Under the pieces are notes generated by a model. It made no database searches and was not told where the DNA came from. It saw only the letters and a program-made list of their open reading frames with translations. From NCBI GenBank assembly GCA_033398695.1, contig CM065814.1:79812358-79876357 (forward strand): 64,000 bases of DNA, given 5' to 3'. Positions 36,191-54,887 of this stretch are shown here, in pieces (position 1 is the stretch's first letter; every line of letters begins with the position of its first letter). Source of the DNA: Orobanche coerulescens. Taxonomy: Eukaryota > Streptophyta > Magnoliopsida > Lamiales > Orobanchaceae. A program made the translations under genes and the position numbers.

Positions 36191-37517
36191 TGTTGTTGGT
36201 TGATTCTTTAGTCTAATACTGGCAAGCGCACGATTTGTTCGATGTAGATATGCGGTGCAAGGTCGATTCCACAGGGAGGACTATAATAGTGAAGTCAAAT
36301 TATTCCTATCGTTTTGAACCAAATTATATTAAATTCTAACCTAGTCCCAAATAATTTTATTTTTGAATGGTTATAATAATTACATTAAATAACAGTAATT
36401 TTTAAGTATATTTTTGATAAATTAATTTTAAATAATTTACTAGGGTTTAGAGTCCACCAATATCTATTTATTATTTATTTTATATTTTAATTCTATGAAA
36501 TTCAGGGAATAGATTCTGAAATGAATCTCACTATTTCCCTATAGATTTGACAATAAGTACAAAATTATAATTCAAATATAGATTTTCCTTTGCTTAAAAA
36601 ATGTAATTTCTAAGCATTATATGTAACCAATTTAATGAAAAACAAATAATGAAAGAAATTAACTAATATCAATAATCACAAAGCAATGGGGAATTTATAA
36701 CTATCAAAAATACGTGATATAATTGATGAAATATATTCCTCTATTGAAGCAAAAACTATAATCGTTAAAAACATTTATTTGGAATTATTATATAAATATT
36801 AATAATAATATAGACATGGTTTCATCATAACCCCAGTAAAAGAAAATTACTCACTCATAATAACAACACAAATTTATTCAATAATATTATTACTCAAATA
36901 TAATTTTATTACACAATATTTTTATTTCTCTCCCTTACAATAATATCTCTCTCTTTTTTCTCCTTTTTTCTCTCGTCCAAAACACTACACATTCATCCCT
37001 TATTTATACTACTTCAAAATCAGTAAAATAATAATTTTTACAATTTTAAAATCCCACCCTCAATTATTTCACGGCTGCTAAGGGGTGCTGATGTCATGGA
37101 TGACATTAGCACAGAGTTGAATTTCTGATCCAATCGGGTGTTGACACGTGGCACAATATGGTCCGTCTATTTAATTGTCCTTCGAACGGTCATAACTTCT
37201 TCATACGAACTCGGATTCAGATGATTTTTTTTTAAAACGATCATCTCGACGAGACGAATAAAATGAGACCAGTCGTAAATATATTTGAATTTTGGAAAAA
37301 TATCGTCCTTGAACCAATTGATCTGTCTTGTACCGGTTGGTTAACCTGCAGATATAATTTAATTCCAATTAATTATCCAAAAATAACACAAAATTATAGA
37401 AAATTCTAATAAAATGAAATAATATAAATATATTGTAAAACGAATAAATTATCACACAAAACACACAATTATATACATAAAAAACTAATAAAAATATTAC
37501 TCAAAATATACCAAACA
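36191..37517 (-). repeat. Athila 3' LTR
   Basis: On the minus strand it runs TGTTTGGTATATT... to ...ACCAACAACA, 1327 bases. Its last ~160 bases (36191-36370), including the GTGGAATCGACC and GTGCGCTTGCC signature of this LTR class, are absent from the 5' LTR. Confidence 0.85.
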
Positions 37518-37533
37518 AATTCCCCCACACTTA
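37518..37533 (-). other. Athila polypurine tract
   Basis: On the minus strand TAAGTGTGGGGGAATT abuts the 3' LTR. Confidence 0.8.
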
Positions 37534-39274: not shown

Positions 39275-39931
39275 TCAGAGGGAAAGGAATGTATTAATTT
39301 TGCGTTTCCGCATAGTGAAATCTTCCATCCAAACAATATTAGCTAGAGTTGGGTCTGGTTCAGGAACAAATGCAATAAGTTTTTTGATCATCTCTTCTGG
39401 TGTTGTTGCAACTACTATGATTCGTTTAGCACGCTCAGAAATAAAACCTTTTTCAGAAGAGTAGTTGATGAAAGATAGTAAACCATCGAAGAAACCATTG
39501 ACATTTAGCAGACCTATTGGTTTCGTATGAATATTTAGCTGGGCTCTGGTAACCACATGAAAAAGTTCCTCAAGAGTGCCAAAACCACCGGCAAGGGTGA
39601 TAAAGGCATCAACATTATTTATCATGTGAGTTATGCGATCTTGCATATTCACAGCTCTGAACTCATATCCAATGGTTGCTCCGGTGATTTTACTTTCAGC
39701 TAGAGGTTTTGGAATGATTCCCAACACTTTTACTTCTTCCATATAGGCAGAAGCAGCACCACGTTCCATTAATCCTAGACTTCCTCCTCCGTAAACCACA
39801 TGAATGCATTTTTCTCCTAAGATACGACCCAAGTTGTGGGCTGCTTCAGTAAAGCAAGCCTCTTTCCCATGACTAGCTCCACCAAAAATGCAGATGGAGT
39901 TAAATCTTTTTGCGGAAGATGATGATTCCAT
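39275..39931 (-). CDS. LOG: LOG-like cytokinin riboside 5'-monophosphate phosphoribohydrolase
   Basis: An uninterrupted 218-residue protein, the usual length of plant LOG enzymes. LOG releases active cytokinin bases from cytokinin nucleotides in one step, in the cytosol. Visible family features: N-terminal Rossmann strand ICIFGGASHGK (13-23), VYGGGSLGLM (46-55), VLGIIPKPL (69-77), ITGATIG (82-88), the signature region LAGGFGTLEEL (113-123) and TKPIGLLNVNGFFDGLLSF (137-154). The canonical PGGxGTxxE appears as AGGFGTLEE, with Pro changed to Ala but both Gly pairs and Glu122 kept; the neighbouring conserved Arg is present (R99) while the following Lys is Ile. The frame has no introns, unlike typical plant LOG genes. 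It lies on the sense strand of the Athila element between integrase and 3' LTR. Whether it is active is unknown. Confidence 0.9.
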   Translation of the reverse strand: MESSSSAKRFNSICIFGGASHGKEACFTEAAHNLGRILGEKCIHVVYGGGSLGLMERGAASAYMEEVKVLGIIPKPLAESKITGATIGYEFRAVNMQDRITHMINNVDAFITLAGGFGTLEELFHVVTRAQLNIHTKPIGLLNVNGFFDGLLSFINYSSEKGFISERAKRIIVVATTPEEMIKKLIAFVPEPDPTLANIVWMEDFTMRKRKINTFLSL

Positions 39932-40014
39932 TTTTTTGAAAAAGAAAATTATTTAGAGAGAAAATGAAAAGAATACAAGTTTGAGGGATGCAGAAAAGAA
40001 ACAACTGCAACGTT

Positions 40015-40022
40015 TATTTATA
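40015..40022 (-). promoter_or_regulatory. Candidate TATA box of the LOG-like gene
   Basis: TATAAATA on the minus strand lies 84 bases upstream of the LOG ATG. A pyrimidine-rich then A-rich leader (TTCAAAAAAATGG at the start codon) follows, a spacing typical of a plant pol II promoter with a short 5' UTR. Confidence 0.5.
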
Positions 40023-40243
40023 GATGCAAAATAAAGTAAAAAGATTTATAAAATCTGTGACCGCGTTAATTGCACTTCAACTACTCAATAGAATAATGAA
40101 TGCATTGATTGCGTATCACTTTTTTTATTCAGAAAATCTAAAACAACGACAAAAAGTGAAGATACTCACGTGTATGTACAGTAGTTGTGATTGTCGCTCA
40201 CATCTTCCTCTGATTTTATGTTCAGAAACGGCTTAAACGCCTT

Positions 40244-40459
40244 CTATGAGTCGGGGAGAAGCTTCCCATCCAATTTTATTACAAATTGGCAAACAAGGTC
40301 TTTTAATGTCAGATTCCCAAGACGTTGTTCATATTCTAGTTTGAATTTATTCCACAAACATCGAATCCCATAATGTACGAGTCCACTAGGATGCGTGTCA
40401 AGAGAAATTTCGATATCATCTAAATTCTCCTTTTTCAGGCCATCCTTGATGAACTGATT
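40244..40459 (-). CDS. Open frame without ATG, overlapping the cysteine-rich ORF
   Basis: A 71-codon open stretch on the minus strand, from just after a TAA at 40462 to a TAG at 40244-40246. It contains LDDIEISLDTHPSGLVHYG and LTLKDLVCQFVIKLDG. It overlaps the last 25 bases of the cysteine-rich ORF in another frame and has no ATG at its beginning, so it is either a piece joined by an old frameshift or a coincidence. No family recognised. Confidence 0.3.
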   Translation of the reverse strand, partial: NQFIKDGLKKENLDDIEISLDTHPSGLVHYGIRCLWNKFKLEYEQRLGNLTLKDLVCQFVIKLDGKLLPDS

Positions 40460-40788
40460 TTATCTTCTCTGTTTGTGGAAGGAATTCCTAAAGATCGACA
40501 TCTTGAATTACAGTTCCACCTAGCACATTTGTAGCAAACGGCGATTTTATTTGCTCGTCCTTTCTTGGCATATGAACTTTTTCCAAGCCCTGGTAAAAAT
40601 CTAATTGGTGTTTCCGTGAATTCACCCGCTATTCTCACTTTGGCTTCAATAATGAATGGAATATCAAAAGGTATGTCATTATTCATAAGCAACCTCATCC
40701 TTTCAAGTCTGGCTTGGTAAAGTTTCAAAATGACTTTTTTACTAAGAAAGGGAAATCTTTTTTCAATTGTTTTCAAAGTTTGTTCCAT
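40435..40788 (-). CDS. Small basic cysteine-rich protein, function unknown
   Basis: An intact 117-residue frame starts MEQTLKTIEKRFPFLSKKVI. The N-terminal half looks helical; residues 69-79 form a basic GKSSYAKKGRA stretch, followed by C85-X2-C88-X4-C93-X3-C97, a possible metal-binding knuckle. A basic segment immediately before CxxC is also the layout of the small cysteine-rich nucleic-acid-binding proteins of several filamentous plant RNA viruses (carla-, viti- and allexivirus types); that resemblance is by eye only. It lies 119 bases after the pol stop and about 500 bases before the LOG gene, on the same strand, in the env position of an Athila element. Confidence 0.6.
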   Translation of the reverse strand: MEQTLKTIEKRFPFLSKKVILKLYQARLERMRLLMNNDIPFDIPFIIEAKVRIAGEFTETPIRFLPGLGKSSYAKKGRANKIAVCYKCARWNCNSRCRSLGIPSTNREDKISSSRMA

Positions 40789-40906: not shown

Positions 40907-43900
40907 TTAATCCACAATATCGGGGTCCTTAAGAAGAATCTCTTCTACCTCAAAAGATTTTAATTCCAAATATCGTTTTAACCGTTGACCATTTACTTTG
41001 AAAATATTACCATTTTTTGGATTTTCAATTTCTACAGCTCCGTGAGGATAGACCGTATGAATAATAAATGGACCAGACCATTGTAAATGCAACTTGCCTG
41101 GAAATAATAATAAACGAGAGTTAAAAAGGACTTTTTGACCAGGAGAAAAAGTTTTTCTCAAAATGTGTTTATCATGAAAAAATTTCATTTTGTCCTTATA
41201 TTTCCTTGCACAATCGTAAGCATCATTTCTCATTTCTTCCAATTCATTTAGTTGAAGTTTCCTATAAATTCCAGCCATGTCTATTGAAAAATTTAATCGT
41301 TTTATGGCCCAGTATGCTCTATGTTCCAATTCAACAGGCAAATGACATGGTTTTCCAAGGACAAGCCTAAATGGAGACATTCCGATGGGTGTTTTAAAAG
41401 CAGTACGGTATGCCCACAATGCATCATTCAATCGCAAAGACCAATCTTTCCTTGTAGGATTAACAGTTTTTTCAAGAATACGTTTGATTTCTCTGTTTGA
41501 AATTTCAACTTGTCCACTTGTTTGAGGGTGATAAGGAGTAGCAACTTTATGTGTAACACCATATTTTTTAAATAATGATTCAAAAATTTATTACAAAATT
41601 TTTTTCCTCCATCACTTATAATTGCTCGTGGTGTTCCAAATTTAAAAAAAATATTTTCTTTCAAAAATTTTACCACGACTTTGTGGTCATTTGTTATGCA
41701 AGCAATTGCTTCTACCCATTTTGAAACATAATCGACGGCCACAAGGATGTAAAGATTGTCAAAAGAAATTGGAAAAGGTCCCATAAAATCTATGCCCCAA
41801 ACATCAAATATTTCAATAATTAAAATTGAGTTTAAAGGCATCATATTTCGTTTAGAAATTCGACCTAATCTTTGACATCTATCACATGTGCTACAATATG
41901 AACGTGTATCTTCGAAAAGTGTTGGCCAATAAAAACCACATTGCAGAATTTTAGCAGTTGTTTTCTTTGAACTAAAATGAACTCCACATGCATGATCATG
42001 ACAAAAGAAAATGATATTTTGTTGTTCATGTTCTGGCACACATCTCCTAATGATTTGATTAGGACAATATTTGAACAAATATGGATCATCCCAAAAGAAT
42101 TTTTTTACTTCGTTTAAAATTTTTGTTTTATCTTGATTATTCCAATGAGATGGCATGTTACGAGTAACAAGGTAATTGACAATGTCTGCATACCAAGGTA
42201 TTTGAGAAACAGACATGAGTTGTTCATCAGGGAAAGTTTCATTAATGGGAGGTTCTTTATCAGTAAAATTCACGATTAGCCTAGACAAATGATCAGCAAC
42301 AACATTTTCAAAGACCTTTTTATCTCGAATTTCTAAGTCAAACTCTTGTAACAATAGAATCCAACGGATCAAGCGAGGTTTAGCATCTTTCTTAGAAAGT
42401 AGATATTTTAATGCAGCATGATCGGAGTAAATTATGTCTTTCGAACCAATCAAGTAAGGTCGAAATTTGTCTAAGGCAAAAACGACTGCAAGCAATTCTT
42501 TTTCAGTTGTAGAATAATTTAATTGGGCATCATTTAGATTTCTACTTGCATAATATATTACAGTTGGCAATTTATTTTCTCTTTGACCCAATACTACACC
42601 GACGGCATAGTCGAATGCATCATACATTATTTCAAAAGGATGATTCCAGATTGGAGATTTGATGATAGGTTCAGAGCTCAACATAGATTTGAGTGTCTTA
42701 AAAGCTTTTAGATAATGATATCAAATACGAACAGTGTGTCTTTTGAAAGTAAATTACATAATGGCCTTGAGATTTTGCTAAAATCTTTGATGAATCGACA
42801 GTAAAAACCAGCATGGCCTAAGAATGACCGAATTTCTTTAATCGTTCGTGGGGGTGGAAGACTGGATATTAAATCAACTTTAGATTTGTCCACCTCAATT
42901 ACTTTTTCAGAAATCACATGTCCTAAGACAATTCCTTTTTTAACCATAAACTGACATTTTTCCCAGTTTAGGACAAGATTCTTCTCCTTACACCTAACCA
43001 ACACTTGGGTTAAGTGGTGTAAACATTCATCAAAGCTAGACCCGAATACAGAAAAATCATCCATAAAAATTTCCAAAAACCGCTCAACCATGTCAGAGAA
43101 AATGCTCATCATACACCGCTGAAAAGTAGCAGATGCATTGCACAAACCGAATGGCATTCGTCAGTAAGCAAAAGTGCCGAAAGGACAGGTAAAAGTGGTT
43201 TTTTCTTGATCTTCAGGAGCAATGGGAATTTGGTTATAGCCGGAATATCCATCAAGAAAACAATAATAAGCATGACCGTCTAACCTTTCTAGCATTTGAT
43301 CGATAAAAGGAAGTGGAAAGTGATCTTTTCTTGTAATAGAGTTCAATTTTCTGTAATCAATACAGACTCTCCATCCAGTTTGAATTCTGGTTGGAACAAG
43401 TTCATTTTCTTCATTCGTGATTGCAGTTATGCCAAATTTCTTTGGAACTATATGAACAGGACTAACCCAAGAGCTGTCAGAAATAGGGTAGATGATCCCT
43501 ACATCTAAGAGTTTGATTATTTCAGCTCTTACAACTTCTTTCAAATTAGGATTTAGTCTTCTTTGAAATTCTCGGGAAGTTTTCGCATTTTCTTCAAGGT
43601 GAATTCGATGCATGCATATAGAAGGACTAATACCTTTAATATCGGAGATGGTCCAGCCTATTGATTCTTTATGTTCTTTAAGGACATTGATTATTTTATC
43701 TTCTCGTTCTTCATCTAAATCATATGCTATGATGACAGGCAGGGTTTCTGATGGTCCTAAAAATGCATATTTTAGAGATTTAGGTAATGGATTGAGCTCT
43801 ATCTTTGAATCCTCAATATGTACTTCTTTATTCATTTGACTCTCAAGTGGTTCGGTTTTAGCTTTCCATTTATCATTATCCAATAATGGTGTAGACTCTA

Positions 43901-44099
43901 GTAAAGAATTTACTTCATTAATTGAACTGTCGATGTCAAAATCTGAGCCAAAATGAGCAAGACAACTTTCAAAAAGATCATCATCATCCATTTTTGGAAA
44001 GAAATAAGGATTCATACTCTCTATCATAGTTAGCTCACAGACATCATCATAATCATCATGTTGTTGAGAAATGTTGAACATATTTAGTTCAACAGTCAT
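40907..44099 (-). pseudogene. pol: Athila pol: RT, RNase H, integrase
   Basis: On the minus strand: RT N-terminal part (ISPSICMHRIHLEE near 43620, TGWRVCIDYRKLNSITRKDH near 43380) to a TGA at 43158 that replaces an Arg before RMPFGLCNA; catalytic FMDDFSVFG near 43065; RNase H ([16 protein letters not shown] near 42620, [20 protein letters not shown] near 42430); integrase zinc finger (HDHACGVHF...[11 protein letters not shown]) and core ([23 protein letters not shown]), then [17 protein letters not shown] and the C-terminus to 40907. Breaks lie near 43158, 42690-42710 and 41430. The wording is clearly Athila. Confidence 0.92.
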
Positions 44100-45135: not shown

Positions 45136-46198
45136 TTATTGATTTGACATGTTCATTTGATGTCCTCCTTTATTCATTGGAGGCATGTTTTGCTTCCAGG
45201 AAAAATTTGGATGATTCCTCCAATTTGGATTATAAGTTGGAGTAAATGGACTGTCCGAAGATTTTCCATATGAATGTAACACATTGACTTCTTCATTAAA
45301 AATTTCTTGATTTTGTGGACCAGAGGGACAAGATTGAGATGAATGAAATGATTCCGCACAAGAAATGCAAAATTCATTTTTTGAGTTTGACGAGTGGATG
45401 GATTGCTTCAAGACTAACGCATCCACTTTTCGTACTAAATCATCTATAGTAGATTTTATTTCAACATCTTGTTTAACCTCGTAAATTCCACCTTTTTTGG
45501 GGTCGTATGCATCGATTTGGCTCTAGAGTCGAGTGAATTCCATTGTTGTGAATTAATTGAAATATTTTCTAGTGCATTCCAAGCTTCGTCTCCAATAAGG
45601 TGAAGAAATTCTCCACCATGCATTGATTGGATTAATTGGCGATTGTTTGGAGTTAAACCATCATAAAAATATTTTACCAAACGCCATATTTCAAAACCAT
45701 GATGGGACACTTAAGAATTAAAACATTAAATCTTTCCCAACACTCATAAAATTCTTCATTTTCTTTTTGGAAAAATTCTGATATTTCTCTTCTAAGACTA
45801 TCAATTTTGGACATTGAAAAAAATTTTGCGAGAAATTTATTCACTAATTGGTCCCAACTAGTAATTTTTCTTGCTTGAAGAGAATTTAGCCAGAATTTTG
45901 CTTTATCTTTGAGAGAAAATGGAAATAATCTAAGTTTGATAGATTCATCAGAGAAATTTTGGAATCGGAAAGTAGAACAAATGTCGAGAAATTCCTTGAC
46001 ATGCATATACGGATCTTCTCTTTCCAAACCGTGAAAAGATGGAAGAAGTTGAATTATTGATGGTTTAAGTTCGAAATGAGTTGCATTAGTCGTAGGCAAC
46101 ACTATGCAAGAAGGAGAATTAGCACTCACTGGAGAAAAATATTCTATTAAAGTTTTCTCTTTTGCAACTTGATTATTCCGATTTTTGATTTCGTCCAT
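45136..46198 (-). pseudogene. gag: Athila gag
   Basis: From ATG at 46198 (MDEIKNRNNQVAKEKTLIEY) the minus strand encodes a retrotransposon gag domain with FSLKDKAKFWLNSLQARKI, typical of Athila, and continues with shifts through 45710-45456 (VKYFYDGLTPNNRQLIQSMH) and 45426-45136 (CISCAESFHSSQSC, NPNWRNHPNFSW). Two frame breaks near 45700 and 45440. Confidence 0.88.
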
Positions 46199-46443: not shown

Positions 46444-48893
46444 AGCCAAACCAAACCAAACCAAACATATCCAGTATATCCCGCTCAGAGCAGGGTCTGG
46501 GGAGGGTAAGATGTACGCAGACCATGCCCCTACTTATTACGGTAGGGAGGCTGTTTCCGTGAAGACCCCCAGCTTAGTGCACAGCAGAATCTTGTGTGAT
46601 AAATACAAAGGAAAACATATGATTCGAAAAAGCTTGAGACCATACCTGAGCCCATGGATTGGTCCACATGGGACTTACCTAAGCGGAATTTGGCTACTTC
46701 ACTCCCGATGAACGCTGCTCTAACAAAAGAGAGGTTGGCTCTGCGCACAGCCCCCTGTCAAAATACACCACACGCAAAGACAATAGGATAAAATATATAA
46801 TAAAAGTAAAAATGCAATGCTCTAGGTCAAAACTAACCGAGACAACCTAACCCTGAGGCTCTCAACTACAGCACCGCTCCCTACAGAAGAATCCACAACT
46901 CTGATCTGGCGCCTCCAAGCGCACCTATCAACAGTCATGGTCTCGGAAAGGTTTAAGGCCTTCAAATCTAATCTCAGTTGCTCCTCCCACGTCCTCCTCG
47001 GTCTGCCTCTCCTCCTCTCCCCGACAACCATTAAACTCTCGACCCTCCTCACCGGAGCAAATGCCTGCCTTCTGCGGACGTGGCCAAACCATCTCAATCT
47101 CCCTTCCCTAACTTTCGCTGATATGGGCGCCACTTCCAGCGCGTTCCTGAAAACCCCATTCGCAATTCTATCTAACATTGTGCGACCACACGACCAACAT
47201 AACATTCTCATTTCAGCCACTTCCAACTTGCTCTCAATCAACTTCTTCATCGCCCAACATTCGGAGCCATACAACATTGCAGGTCGGATTGCCGCTCTAT
47301 AGAATTTACCCTTCATATTTAGAGGGAATTTCTTGTCGCACAGGACCCCTGTCGCTGCTCTCTACCTTAGCCACCCCACCTTGATGCGATGTGTGACATC
47401 ATCTTCACACTCACCTTCCTTCTGAATGATCGAACCCAAATACTTGAACTTATCCGTACAGGGTACGATCTGATCCTCAATCATTACCTCAACAAATTTC
47501 TCGTTGGCCTCACCACTAAAGTTACACCAGAGATACTCGATCTTAGACCGGCTCACACATAAGCCCTGGGATTCTAACTTAGCCCTCCAAAGCTCCAACT
47601 TCGAGTTCACCTCCCTCCTCGACTCCGCCACTAACACAATGTCGTCAGCAAAAAGCATGCACCACGGGATGCCATCTTGAATCCCTCGCGAAATGACGTC
47701 AAGGATTAGAGCGAAGAGAAGAGGACTTAGCGCCGACCCCTGGTGTAGCCCTATCTCAACTGGAAAATACTGGGTGTCACCAACTGGGGTCCTAACGCAC
47801 GTCCTGGCTTGGGAGTACATGTCTTGGATCGCCCTAACGAACGGCAACGACACCCTCCTCTCTACTAGGCTCCTCCAAATAACATCGCGCGGAATGCTAT
47901 CATAAGCCTTCTCTAGATCTATGAACACCATATGGAGGTCCTTACACCGCTCTCTAAACTTCTCCATAAGGCGTCTGACGAGATGAATGGCCTCAGTCGT
48001 GGACCTCCCCGGCATGAAGCTATTGCGATAATTCTTACACGCAAGTGCACGTCATCGTTTACAAGTAATAAAGTGATAAGTAGAGTATCGTTCCCACGAG
48101 GACTGAATCTCTAACTACCGATTTTTGTGTATTCCAATTTTATTTGAACAATCAAATTTGGGTTTTTGCAATTAATAACTAAAAGAATTACTAAAAGACT
48201 AGTAGAAAACGATGGCTTGAATAAAATAAATCAAATGATGAATAAGTCTAGGATTCTGAATCCACCTCAGTTTATCCGAATTTACTCTCGATTATCCGTA
48301 ATAAATAATTTTCCCAATTTATTGAAGGCGCAGATTGCTAATATATTCTACCGCCTCTCCCGAGGTCAATAGATTTATCTAAAGGCGAATAACGCACTCT
48401 ATCCCTAGGTGAATTAATTCGTCAATAGGCGAAAATCATAAAATCTCCCAAAGGCCACGTAGTTCCTATGAGTATATTCCTATCTCACAGAATAAAACGT
48501 TCCTCACCAATAGTTCCTCACCAAATCTCCTCTCCCGATTCGAAGTGAATGATTAAATCAATACAACTATTGGCCAGATAATTGCAAGCATTAAACACAA
48601 TTGGGAAAACTCAACAAAAGGTAATTAATTGGATAATCTCAAGCAATTCGTCAAAACAAAGGTTTCATCAAAACCCTAGATTAGGGCTTTAGCCTGACAT
48701 ACTAATAATTGAAAATACAGAATAGATAAATGAAAGCATAAAAATCAAACGCAAATGAAGCTCGGATTCCTCCGTTCTTCAGCTTCTGCCCTCTGCCCTT
48801 GAAGTCTTCTACTTCCCTCTTCTTCTGCCGTCTCCAAGCTTCAGCTCCAAAAGATTAAAAGATCCCCAGATAATTAATTAGGGTCTTAAACCC

Positions 48894-48901
48894 TATTTAT
48901 A
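48894..48901 (-). promoter_or_regulatory. TATA box of the solo LTR
   Basis: TATAAATA on the minus strand, in CTATAAATAGGG, downstream of the palindrome array. Confidence 0.6.
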
Positions 48902-48995
48902 GCTCAGCATATCCTCCAAATCGCGTCCGTATTCGTCGGTCGAAAACTGGCTTCGAAACGGCCCTAATTCGCGCGGACAACCAAAACCCGCCAAG

Positions 48996-49178
48996 TGTGC
49001 CGCGACGCACTAAACCTGTGCCGCGGCACAGAGCCTTCAGCTGGATGCCTGGGCGTCCTCAATTTCTTCTGTGCCGCGGCTCACCTCGGCTGTGCCGCGA
49101 CACAGAGTACAGTTTACTCTGCCTTTGGCTGGGTGTCTTCCTGTGCCGCGGCCCTGCTTCCTTGTGCCGCGGCTCATA
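48996..49178 (-). promoter_or_regulatory. Array of TGTGCCGCGGCACA-type palindromes
   Basis: Six copies of TGTGCCGCG with more or less complete palindromic second halves lie in 183 bases; the best is CTGTGCCGCGGCACAGAG near 49016-49033. Read in LTR orientation the array lies about 95 bases upstream of the TATA box. Confidence 0.65.
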
Positions 49179-52100
49179 GTCCAGATTTGCCGTTTTCGCC
49201 CGTTTTGCTTCGTTTTAGCTCCCGAACTTCAATTTCCTGTCAATCATACAAAATTAAGGCATTAAAGGCTCATTTAGACAATTTCACTCTCCAAAATACT
49301 ACAAAATAATGATAAATAAGCGTATAAAAATACGCCTAACAGAAGCCAAATTGGTTCTCTGAGATCTCCACTTCTCTTCTAACCTTGCATTCCACCACTC
49401 TTTCCAAAAGTTTCATAGTATGACTGAGGAGTTTAATACCCCTATAGTTACTACAACTCTGACCATCGCCTTTGTTCTTGAAAAAAGGCACGACAATACT
49501 ATGCCTCCACTCTGTCGGCATCTTATAGTCTTTGAGGAGGATGTTGAACAGATCTGCTAGCCACTGAACTCCGACTTCCCCCAGACAAAGCCATACCTCA
49601 ATAGGGATCTGATCCGGGCCTACAGCCTTAGATCTACCCATTTTCATTAGGGCACCCTTTACTTCCTCCTTGCTGATGCTCTTACAGGAACTAAACGAAC
49701 GAGCAGAAGATAGCCTAACTCCTTGCACCACCGAGTCACTACCTCTAGCCTCATTGAAAAGTTCGGAAAAATATCTATTCCACCGCTCCTTAATAGCCAC
49801 ATCGTTCACTAACACTTGACCCAAATCATCCTTAATAAACTTAATGGGACCTAGGTCGCGCCGCCCTCTTTCCCTAGCTTTCGCTAGTTTAAAATAGCAT
49901 TCGCTCCTTCTTTGGTGTCTAGGCACTTGTACATCTCCTCGTAAGCCTCACATTTAGCCTTAGCCACCGCCTTCTTAGCCTCTCTTTTCGCCACCTTGTA
50001 CGCTACAATCTTCAAGATTCTCTCCTCCCCATCACTAACCGACAAAAGCTCCTTAAATAGCGCTTGTTTAGCCTTAACCTTGTTTTGGACCTCCTCATTC
50101 CACCACCAAGCCTCCCTAGGTCCACTAGACCTGCCCAAAGAAACCCATACCACCTTCTCTCCCACTCTCCTAATAGCATTGGCCATGCTGGTCCACATAA
50201 GGTTAGCATCGCCCGCACGCAAAAAACCTCCTTCGCGGGTTAGAGACTCCTTGAATATTGTCGCCTTCTCACCCTTCAGATCCTTCCAGAGAATCCTACG
50301 TCTAGCTTCTCTAACCCTGCTAACAACACGACCTCTCATGGATAAATCCATAGCCAGCAGCCGGTGTTGAGAAGCACATGCCTCGCTCCGGAACACCTTG
50401 CAGTCCACGCACGCCCTAGCATCCCGACTGCGCAAAAGAAGGTAGTCAATTTGCGTGTTGTGCCCCCCACTACTGAAGGTGATGAGGTGCTCAGCTCTCT
50501 TCTGAAAAACAGAGTTAGCAATTACCAACTCATGCGCAGTGGAAAACTCCAACAATGCGGAACCTCCTGCATTCCTAACACCGAAGCCGAAACCACCATG
50601 CGCACTATGATAACCATCCACCCCTTCACCAATGTGCCCATTGAAATCACCCCCTAAAATAATAACTTGATCATCCGGAATACACCGGACCAACTCATCT
50701 ACACAGACCCAAAAGGCTTCCTTATCAAGCACACCCAAACCAACATGTGCGGCATATGCACAAACCACATTAACCACCTTCTCCCCAACCACCACTTTAA
50801 CGGACATAATCCTATCATCGCACCCCTTCATTTCCACGACGTTGTCCTTACGCTCCTTAGACAAAAGAATGCCCACACCATTGCTCGAGTTAGCAAGGCC
50901 AGAATACCACAATTTATAACCGTTCACCTCCATGGACTGCGCCCCCTTCCACCTAGTCTCCTGAATAGAAGCCACATCAACCCTTCTCTTACCCAAAACA
51001 TCCACAAGCTCCAAATGCTTACCCGACAAGGTACCCAAATTCCAACTACCAACCCGCAAATACTGCGACATCGACCAATACAAAACCCAAACGCACTATG
51101 AGAAATACAATGGGGTAGTGAAGCCAAAAATGAAAATAAGATGAGAATGACAAAGACAATATAAAAGCAAGCAAACCGCATAAAAATCGCAGTAAATGGT
51201 AGATATATGGCAGACAGAAATGAAATTTGACAGAAAAGTACAATGATACCGGACTTCGACACGCCTTGAAGACGAGGGAGGAGAAGCCACAGAAGCTGGA
51301 AACCGTTCAACTCCTGAACAGGGAAAAGGCGATCGATAGGCCGACGACACCTGGTAGCAGCATGGGAAACCTGCAAAACAGACAGCTAAAATGCAATACT
51401 ACTGTTAGATTGACGGGGAGGGATGAATGTCGCGGTGTAAAGTTATTCTTTCGGCGATACGCCGGCCAGAGGTGACCAGCAGCACGGGGCGGCGCAAGCG
51501 TAAGTTACGACAAAGCTCAGGGGTTAGTTAAAAATCACACTGTTATTTTACAGAAAAATCAGAAAAACAACCCAAATCGCCGACCAACAGAGACCAGTTC
51601 AACATAAACTGAGAACCAAAATCAAAACACGAAAAGCAGAAAAGCAGAAAATGGTAGAAAAAGGAATCGCTGCAGATATGGGAATCCCAAAAGTGAACTA
51701 GAAAGCAGATCAGGTGGTAAAACTCAACCCTTGCCAAAGCCCAGTTCAGATCGGGAGAAGAACAACCACAAAATACAGAGTTTGCCAAAGTTCTCGGCGG
51801 AGAAGAAATCCAAAAAATTCCGGCCCCGAGTATGATACGATTAAAATAGGTTACCCTTTTCTAAAAAATGGGGGATATAATTTATATAAATCCACAAGCA
51901 AGATTTTGGAACTGCAAAATCTTTACTGTGTTTCTCTCCGATGGGTGAAGAGGAAGAGAAAGGGGATTCAAAAGTCAAACAACACTGACCTCTACCCGTA
52001 AGTTCCCACACCGCCTATCTAAACCGTGCAAAAAGAAGATCGCAAAACAAAACTCAATCGCGATCTGAATCGAACCGAACAAAAATATAGATGAAAAATC

Positions 52101-53700: not shown

Positions 53701-53708
53701 TTGCGCCT

Positions 53709-53726
53709 CCCCGGCAACGGCGCCAA
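53709..53726 (-). other. Athila primer binding site
   Basis: TTGGCGCCGTTGCCGGGG on the minus strand, the standard primer site of Athila/Tat elements, just downstream of the 5' LTR. Confidence 0.9.
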
Positions 53727-53727
53727 A

Positions 53728-54887
53728 AACTTTATAATAATTGCATTAAATAACAGTAATTTTTAAGTAGATTTTTGATAAATTGATTTTAAATAATTTA
53801 CTAGGGTTTAGAGTCCACCAATGTCTATTTATTATTTATTTTATATTTTAATTCCAAGAAATTCAGGGAATAGATTCTGAAATCAATCTCACTATTTCCC
53901 TATAGATTTGACAATAAGTACAAAATTATAATTCAAATATAGATTTTCCTTCACTTAAAAAATGTAATTTCTAAGCATTATATGTATCTAATTTAATGGA
54001 AAATAAATAATCAAAGAAATTAACTAATATCAATAATCACAAAGCAAGGGGGAATTTATAACTATCAAAAATACGTGATATAATTGATGAAATAATATTC
54101 CCCTATTGAAGCGAAAATCATAATCGTTAAAAATATTTATTTGGAATTATTATATAAATATTAATAATAATATAGACATGGTTTCATCATAACCCCAGTA
54201 AAAGAAAATTATTCACTCATAATAACAACACAAATAAATAAATATTCCATAATATTATTACTCAAATATAATTTTATTACATAATATTTTTATTTCTCTC
54301 CCTTACAATAATATCTCTCTATTTTTTTCTCCTTTTTTCTCTCCTCCAAAACACTACACGTTCATCCCCTATTTATACTACTTTAAAATCAATAAAATAA
54401 TAATTTTTACAATTTTAAAATCTCACCCTCAATTATTTCACGGCTTCTAGGGGGTGCTGATGTCATGGATGACATCAGCACAGAGTTGAATTTCCGATCC
54501 AATCGGGTGTTGACACGTGGCACAATATGGTTCGTCTATTTAATTGTCATTCGAACGGTCATAACTTCTTCATATGAACTCGGATTTGGATGAATTGTTT
54601 TTAAAAACGATCGTCTCGACGAGATGAATAAAATGAGACCAGTCGTGATTATATTTGAATTTTATAAAAATATCGTCCTTGAACCAATTGATCTGTCTTG
54701 TACTGGTTGGTTAACCTGCAGATATAATTTAATTCCAATTAATTATCCAAAAATAACAAAAAATTATAGAAAATTCTAATAAAATGAAATAATATAAATA
54801 TATGGTAAAACGAATAAATTATCACACAAAATACACAATTATATACATAAAATACTAATAAAAATATTACTCAAAATATACCAAACA
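53728..54887 (-). repeat. Athila 5' LTR, shortened at its end
   Basis: About 1160 bases matching 36371-37517. Homology stops at ...AATTATTATAA, after which a few bases lead into the primer site; about 165 terminal bases present in the 3' LTR are missing. Confidence 0.85.

Follow-up and report, generated by a model that had tools for sequence, protein, structure and literature searches.

The window considered here, a 64,000-nucleotide stretch of DNA from Orobanche coerulescens, holds an LTR retrotransposon on its minus strand, and two accessory genes lie between the integrase and the 3' LTR of this element. One is an uninterrupted frame for a protein of the LONELY GUY (LOG) family; the other, upstream of it, encodes a protein resembling the nucleic-acid-binding proteins (NABP, or CRP) of betaflexiviruses. 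The features are as follows.

36371..37518, minus strand: 3' LTR (self-BLAST, alignment)
37520..37532, minus strand: G-rich polypurine tract, adjoining the 3' LTR
39275..39931, minus strand: LOG-like ORF, 218 aa, uninterrupted and without intron
40247..40788, minus strand: NABP/CRP-like ORF for a nucleic-acid-binding protein of betaflexivirus type; relatives have about 181 aa, and the window copy is interrupted by a frameshift
40907..42684, minus strand: RNase H/integrase region, split between the ORFs 41428-42684 and 40907-41437
42708..44099, minus strand: reverse transcriptase region, in two ORFs, both with PF00078
44262..44657, minus strand: protease-region ORF (PF13650 at E 0.032, below cut-off); a related piece occurs in Xanthoceras LOG gene models
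45674..46198, minus strand: gag ORF (PF03732, E 1.4e-16)
46822..51376, minus strand: LINE-type sequence in the interval from gag to the 5' LTR; ends approximate, taken from ORFs
53708..53725, minus strand: primer-binding-site-like sequence just inside the 5' LTR, its complement located by string
53732..54887, minus strand: 5' LTR (self-BLAST, alignment)

The two LTRs enclose gag, reverse transcriptase, RNase H and integrase in the order of gypsy elements, and the layout is therefore that of Ty3/gypsy. The LTRs match at 1095 of 1147 aligned bases, with 10 gap columns (K2P 0.047). The ORF at 41428-42684 carries Pfam matches to PF17917, PF17921 and PF00665, and that at 40907-41437 matches no Pfam family at E ≤ 0.1; in the LINE-type region the endonuclease ORF at 49884-51083, the sole LINE-type ORF scanned, matches PF03372 (E 3.9e-9). 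We take the primer-binding-site-like sequence to fit tRNA-Asp, and it is from this sequence and the layout that the element is presumed to be of Athila type.

The sequence-only reading had placed the LOG frame inside one such element, bounded by two LTRs and a target site duplication. The LTRs were borne out; the duplication was not found. When the sequence around the outer ends of the two LTRs was scanned for direct repeats of 4-6 bp, four 4-bp matches came up, none of 5 or 6 bp, and no repeat lay at both borders; the duplication may have mutated. Neither the LINE-type ORFs nor the NABP-like gene had figured in that reading. A TATAAATA box with a CT-rich leader precedes the LOG start by about 90 bases (40010-40030, minus strand) and represents a possible internal promoter; octamers of this type occur 20 times in the window, counting both strands.

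The LOG-like protein and its active site

The 218-residue product matches PF03641 at E 2.1e-34 and Arabidopsis LOG3 (2a33) at E 9.7e-50, which confirms the intact LOG-like frame first noted here, and both fold and family profile place it among the LOG proteins. AtLOG3 shares 48% identity with it over 173 aligned residues, no less than many of the element-type relatives do. Against the NCBIfam model CtkRMPhLog (NF058542) it scores 93.1 bits, far below the equivalog cut-off of 300, which plant LOGs may not pass either. The PGGxGTxxE motif is replaced by AGGFGTLEE. In the numbering of Corynebacterium glutamicum LOG, used throughout, the window protein keeps the catalytic residues Arg99 and Glu122, and the sites of Met96, His97, Lys100, Glu125 and Trp129 hold M, Q, I, H and R, so that the pocket is not that of a standard LOG. 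These five residues form the probable prenyl site and are identical in CgLOG, AtLOG3, OsLOG and CpLOG, according to the sections available of PMC4979012, which also give MmLOG as differing at three of them. In the accessible part of PMC5379747, alanine at the equivalent of Lys100 in CgLOGII abolished AMP hydrolysis.

The same pattern runs through the relatives. The matches listed gave 224 LOG proteins including that of the window; removal of 32 outside 195-232 aa left 192, i.e. the window protein and 191 relatives, 67 from Orobanche and 124 others. Among these, Arg99 is kept in 59/67 Orobanche and 115/124 other proteins, Glu122 in 63/67 and 119/124, and the whole PGGxGTxxE motif in 43/67 and 105/124. 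Lys100 survives in no Orobanche protein and in one of the 124 others (P0214), hence in 1/191 overall, and the count for Glu125 is the same (0/67, 1/124 and 1/191). Trp129 is present in 0/67 and 122/124, and His97 in 0/67 and 68/124. The catalytic pair thus appears mostly kept while the base and prenyl pocket has been rebuilt. Since Lys100 and Glu125 are lost, and in Orobanche Trp129 also, ordinary cytokinin activation by these proteins is doubtful as judged from their residues; of the label ‘cytokinin-activating’ given to the window gene, the fold and the catalytic pair stand and the activity is in question. Genuine LOGs differ among themselves in the prenyl pocket, as MmLOG shows, so a changed pocket does not prove that activity has been lost, and the reading that we consider fairly probable is the broader one, that either substrate or activity has changed.

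Most of the non-Orobanche element proteins end in a basic stretch followed by LxLxL, the strict form being found in 108/124 of these and in 0/67 from Orobanche; in the window the C-terminus of the LOG-like ORF is encoded at 39275-39310 on the minus strand. We take the LxLxL tail to be EAR-like.

Spread and divergence of the LOG-like proteins

Relatives are numerous. A first search with the LOG protein returned 2654 matches and a second 7919 among 7998 scored candidates, of which 120 were listed in each case. Several 90%-identity clusters are large: P0001 has 244 member sequences and a representative from O. hederae that is 90% identical to the window protein, P0010 (O. minor) has 328 and P0205 (Pterospermum) has 327. 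The contigs column reads 1 for these clusters, and their member counts, taken as a sign of copy number, suggest retroelement-like numbers. Among the matches listed, Rehmannia and Paulownia supply relatives of like length that share 59-63% identity with the window protein; those of Malvaceae, Populus and Xanthoceras, also of like length, share 46-53%. A scan of IMG/VR with the LOG protein found no relatives.

A tree was built from 48 sequences, picked by hand out of the 192 full-length proteins, with four cellular LOGs added. In it the 48 element-type sequences split from AtLOG3 and AtLOG8 at 99/95. Orobanche, Rehmannia and Paulownia sequences group with two further ones at 100/99. Those of Malvaceae do not form one group, and Primulina, which we believe also to belong to the Lamiales, lies apart from Orobanche, Rehmannia and Paulownia; because of the scattered Malvaceae and of the position of Primulina, several element lineages, or transfers, are possible from the tree. 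A single capture of a LOG gene is the simplest reading, within the limits of a tree with only two plant host LOGs, and of a resemblance between AtLOG3 and the window protein that roughly equals that of many element sequences.

Constraint on the family and decay of the window copy

Open frames of about 216-218 aa have been retained across divergence down to 45-63% identity. The four cellular LOGs have 52 invariant sites, of which the Orobanche consensus retains 41 and the consensus of the others 45, and the differences among Orobanche proteins fall at conserved sites in 333 of 1358 cases (24.5%, against 35.3% expected), although the rows are not independent; these conserved-site figures use a 66/125 grouping in which P0095 (O. 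minor) is placed among the others. Such figures point to some constraint on the family.

The state of the window copy is a separate matter. Of its 17 differences from the Orobanche consensus, 8 hit positions with a conservation of 90% or more elsewhere, against the 35% expected if changes were uniform. Three of the 8, G56E, G66E and P114A, together with L181M, alter sites that are invariant in the four cellular LOGs. In 20,000 simulations of neutral decay at the LTR-derived rate, with substitutions only and without indels, the start was kept and no stop was gained in 67%. The observation that gag and pol are broken and the LOG frame is not holds good, and its use as a sign of later capture or retained selection does not, because an open frame beside broken ones is uninformative when most neutral simulations stay open. 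The argument that absence of breaks means selection was rejected on this ground, and the substitutions at cellular-invariant sites also speak against an ‘intact, so selected’ window copy. With the pol and NABP-like frames broken, LOG changed at conserved sites and an open frame expected from neutrality, the window copy is probably decaying.

Decay of this kind is also what would be seen if both genes were passengers, a captured cassette copied along without helping the element, and the 8 of 17 changes at conserved sites agree with that. We nevertheless regard it as unlikely, since it does not account for frames that stay open over such divergence, for the cellular-invariant sites kept in both consensus sequences or for Orobanche differences that, non-independence aside, avoid conserved sites.

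Nor do the data suit a recent capture, in which the element would have taken up a host LOG mRNA and would now be spreading a working cytokinin-activating gene. The LOG fold, the absence of an intron and the widely kept Arg99 and Glu122 are all as this account would have them. However, the family is diverse and widespread, the near-universal loss of Lys100 and Glu125 does not fit, and the window copy itself carries P114A. Large clusters and relatives of like length in several plant groups, at the identities given above, are the reason why capture by the window element, as originally proposed, is not supported, and we hold the whole account to be quite unlikely.

The NABP-like neighbour

Between the integrase and the LOG-like gene, tblastn with the relative P0224 covers 40247-40788 in two frames. 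A 116-residue piece of the window copy matches PF01623, the Carlavirus nucleic-acid-binding protein family, at 23.1 bits (cut-off 20.9), and misses PF05515 at 14.6 bits (cut-off 23, E 0.033). Searching the database yielded 83 relatives, among them proteins from Orobanche, Xanthoceras, Acer and Rhamnella; a precomputed PF01623 assignment exists for 81 of the 83. In an alignment of 29 of the 83, picked by hand, with the window piece as the thirtieth member, PF01623 is found in 30/30 and PF05515 in 29/30 at E ≤ 0.01, with best values of 1.5e-8 and 1.1e-8 respectively, and sixteen columns are invariant, four of them Cys. The proteins have a basic stretch followed by a Cys finger. When six members were held to the profile cut-offs, five passed PF01623 and four PF05515. 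PHROGs gave nothing for two NABP-like proteins, and a scan of IMG/VR with the NABP alignment found no relatives.

A match of this sort could have arisen by convergence, as a basic zinc finger with no shared descent with betaflexiviruses. Short Cys-rich basic motifs converge easily and the Carla_C4 match covers only about 25-40 residues. The structure model of the NABP-like protein is poor (pLDDT 59) and gave no significant fold match among viral models (best E 0.074), and a profile search of the PDB returned nothing below E 0.83. Set against this, the PF05515 matches of the six members span 53-104 residues, finger included. Four gag ORFs in the window match zf-CCHC and neither viral family at E ≤ 1, which gives no support to the idea that the viral match stems from a zinc knuckle of the general kind. 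Moreover, ten of the first 13 entries in the viral fold list are named as RNA silencing suppressors or nucleic-acid-binding proteins of such viruses, the remaining three being one ‘15kDa protein’ of Cherry mottle leaf virus and two without a name. Convergence thus appears improbable, and the comparison of sequences makes it very probable that the NABP-like protein is homologous to the viral proteins.

Recurrent pairing of the two genes

The two genes also occur together in other assemblies, as the proposal of an element-borne LOG gene would lead one to expect. In O. minor, the adjacent locus tags OROMI_009434/009435 correspond to P0078 (LOG) and P0225 (NABP), and OROMI_020769/020768 to P0070 (LOG) and P0226 (NABP), with contigs equal in size in both cases, and LOG and NABP are joined in one gene model in P0052 (O. 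hederae) and P0300 (Acer yangbiense). Contigs of equal size from the same source were counted between 53 LOG and 67 NABP entries, the size being that of the longest contig of each cluster; the 5 coincidences compare with a mean of 0.69 under jitter, and 4 of 5000 jitters reached 5. The 67 entries are 65 proteins, two of them counted under two sources (of the 83 NABP relatives, one has no contig size and 17 are NCBI-only), and two further equal sizes (950 and 1389) between different sources were left uncounted. Among the matches listed, only 2 of 11 Orobanche NABP tags adjoin a LOG tag, both lists consisting of cluster representatives. Outside the window the linkage rests on gene models, locus tags and equal-sized contigs, and we consider it highly probable that a LOG and NABP cassette is borne by the element family.

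Gene models of Xanthoceras sorbifolium (P0083, P0089 and P0091) each contain two LOG-like stretches, and in P0083 and P0089 a protease-like piece sits between them. This piece, picked by eye, resembles the window protease region with pairwise E values of 1e-8 and 3e-8, and was unreported by tblastn at 1e-3; it counts in favour of LOG lying next to an Athila-like pol outside Orobanche too. A LOG gene model from Orobanche gracilis (P0092) also carries PF14223, which by its name we take to be a copia-type gag domain; the model is perhaps a gene-prediction artefact.

A separate processed LOG retrocopy that landed in the window element alone, for which the LINE-type ORFs within the same element might speak, was rejected as extremely improbable because in O. 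minor, O. hederae and Acer the LOG-like gene again has the NABP-like gene as its upstream neighbour.

Possible roles of the cassette

The explanation that we favour, with moderate confidence, is an Athila-type Ty3/gypsy family with an inherited accessory cassette between integrase and 3' LTR, comprising an intronless LOG-fold protein and a basic NABP/CRP-like protein with a Cys finger, the latter a member of the silencing-suppressor family of betaflexiviruses. Both genes would serve the element rather than the host. By viral analogy, the NABP-like protein would bind nucleic acid and either shield the RNA of the element from silencing or change transcription in the host. Its LOG-like partner would be a nucleotide phosphoribohydrolase or a nucleotide binder whose substrate is no longer the standard cytokinin nucleotide, acting on a nucleotide in the same cell. 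A joint role of the two in counter-defence or host manipulation is suggested tentatively, by analogy, and is somewhat less probable than not. The more specific idea of a portable counter-defence cassette, in which a silencing suppressor sharing descent with those of RNA viruses travels with a LOG-derived enzyme re-aimed at another nucleotide, e.g. an immune signal, is rather unlikely as it stands. The basic, EAR-like LxLxL tail of most non-Orobanche members could direct the enzyme to the nucleus and to co-repressors.

Should the two genes cooperate, this would be a retrotransposon with an anti-silencing gene of its own, a relative of the genes that RNA viruses use. Genes would then have passed between RNA viruses and retroelements, and the means by which such elements build up large copy numbers in plant genomes despite silencing would become testable. 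Counts of plant LOG genes may also include retrotransposon genes with altered active sites; among the matches listed, database names label two Orobanche element-type proteins as cytokinin-activating enzymes.

Comparison with known systems

Ty3/gypsy elements with a YgdH/LOG domain have already been published from Citrus and Populus, in the accessible sections of PMC9289625, which cites Steinbauerova et al. 2011, and for this reason the view that a retrotransposon-borne LOG gene would be unusual holds only in part. The shared feature is a LOG-family domain in plant Ty3/gypsy elements; the account, in those sections, is without the NABP-like partner, the pocket loss, Orobanche, Rehmannia or Malvaceae. 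Athila and its relatives are known to carry extra ORFs, env-like or other, in the same position (pol to 3' LTR) and sense (PMC7264820, in the part available), and the window element differs from the env-like cases in having two genes with named non-env domain matches. PMC5967125, as far as its text is available, mentions Athila only within a list of viruses and in one reference, and among the titles and abstracts listed from the open literature none ties NABP or Carla_C4 to retrotransposons. In that literature, partly surveyed, neither the LxLxL tail nor the NABP-like partner nor the loss of pocket residues was found, and the latter two look new.

Compared with the plant enzymes AtLOG3 and AtLOG8, the element proteins differ by the loss of Lys100 and Glu125, in Orobanche by that of Trp129 and His97 as well, and in 108/124 non-Orobanche members by a basic C-terminal tail ending in LxLxL. 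The CRPs of betaflexiviruses have been reported to suppress RNA silencing, and that of chrysanthemum virus B to be a transcription factor causing hyperplasia (PMC12172455, sections available). With these Carlavirus and betaflexivirus proteins (PF01623, PF05515) the element protein shares the basic stretch and the Cys finger and, in several members, a wider domain match; unlike them, with their RNA genomes, it is a protein of about 181 aa encoded by an LTR retrotransposon, and the likeness is one of sequence.
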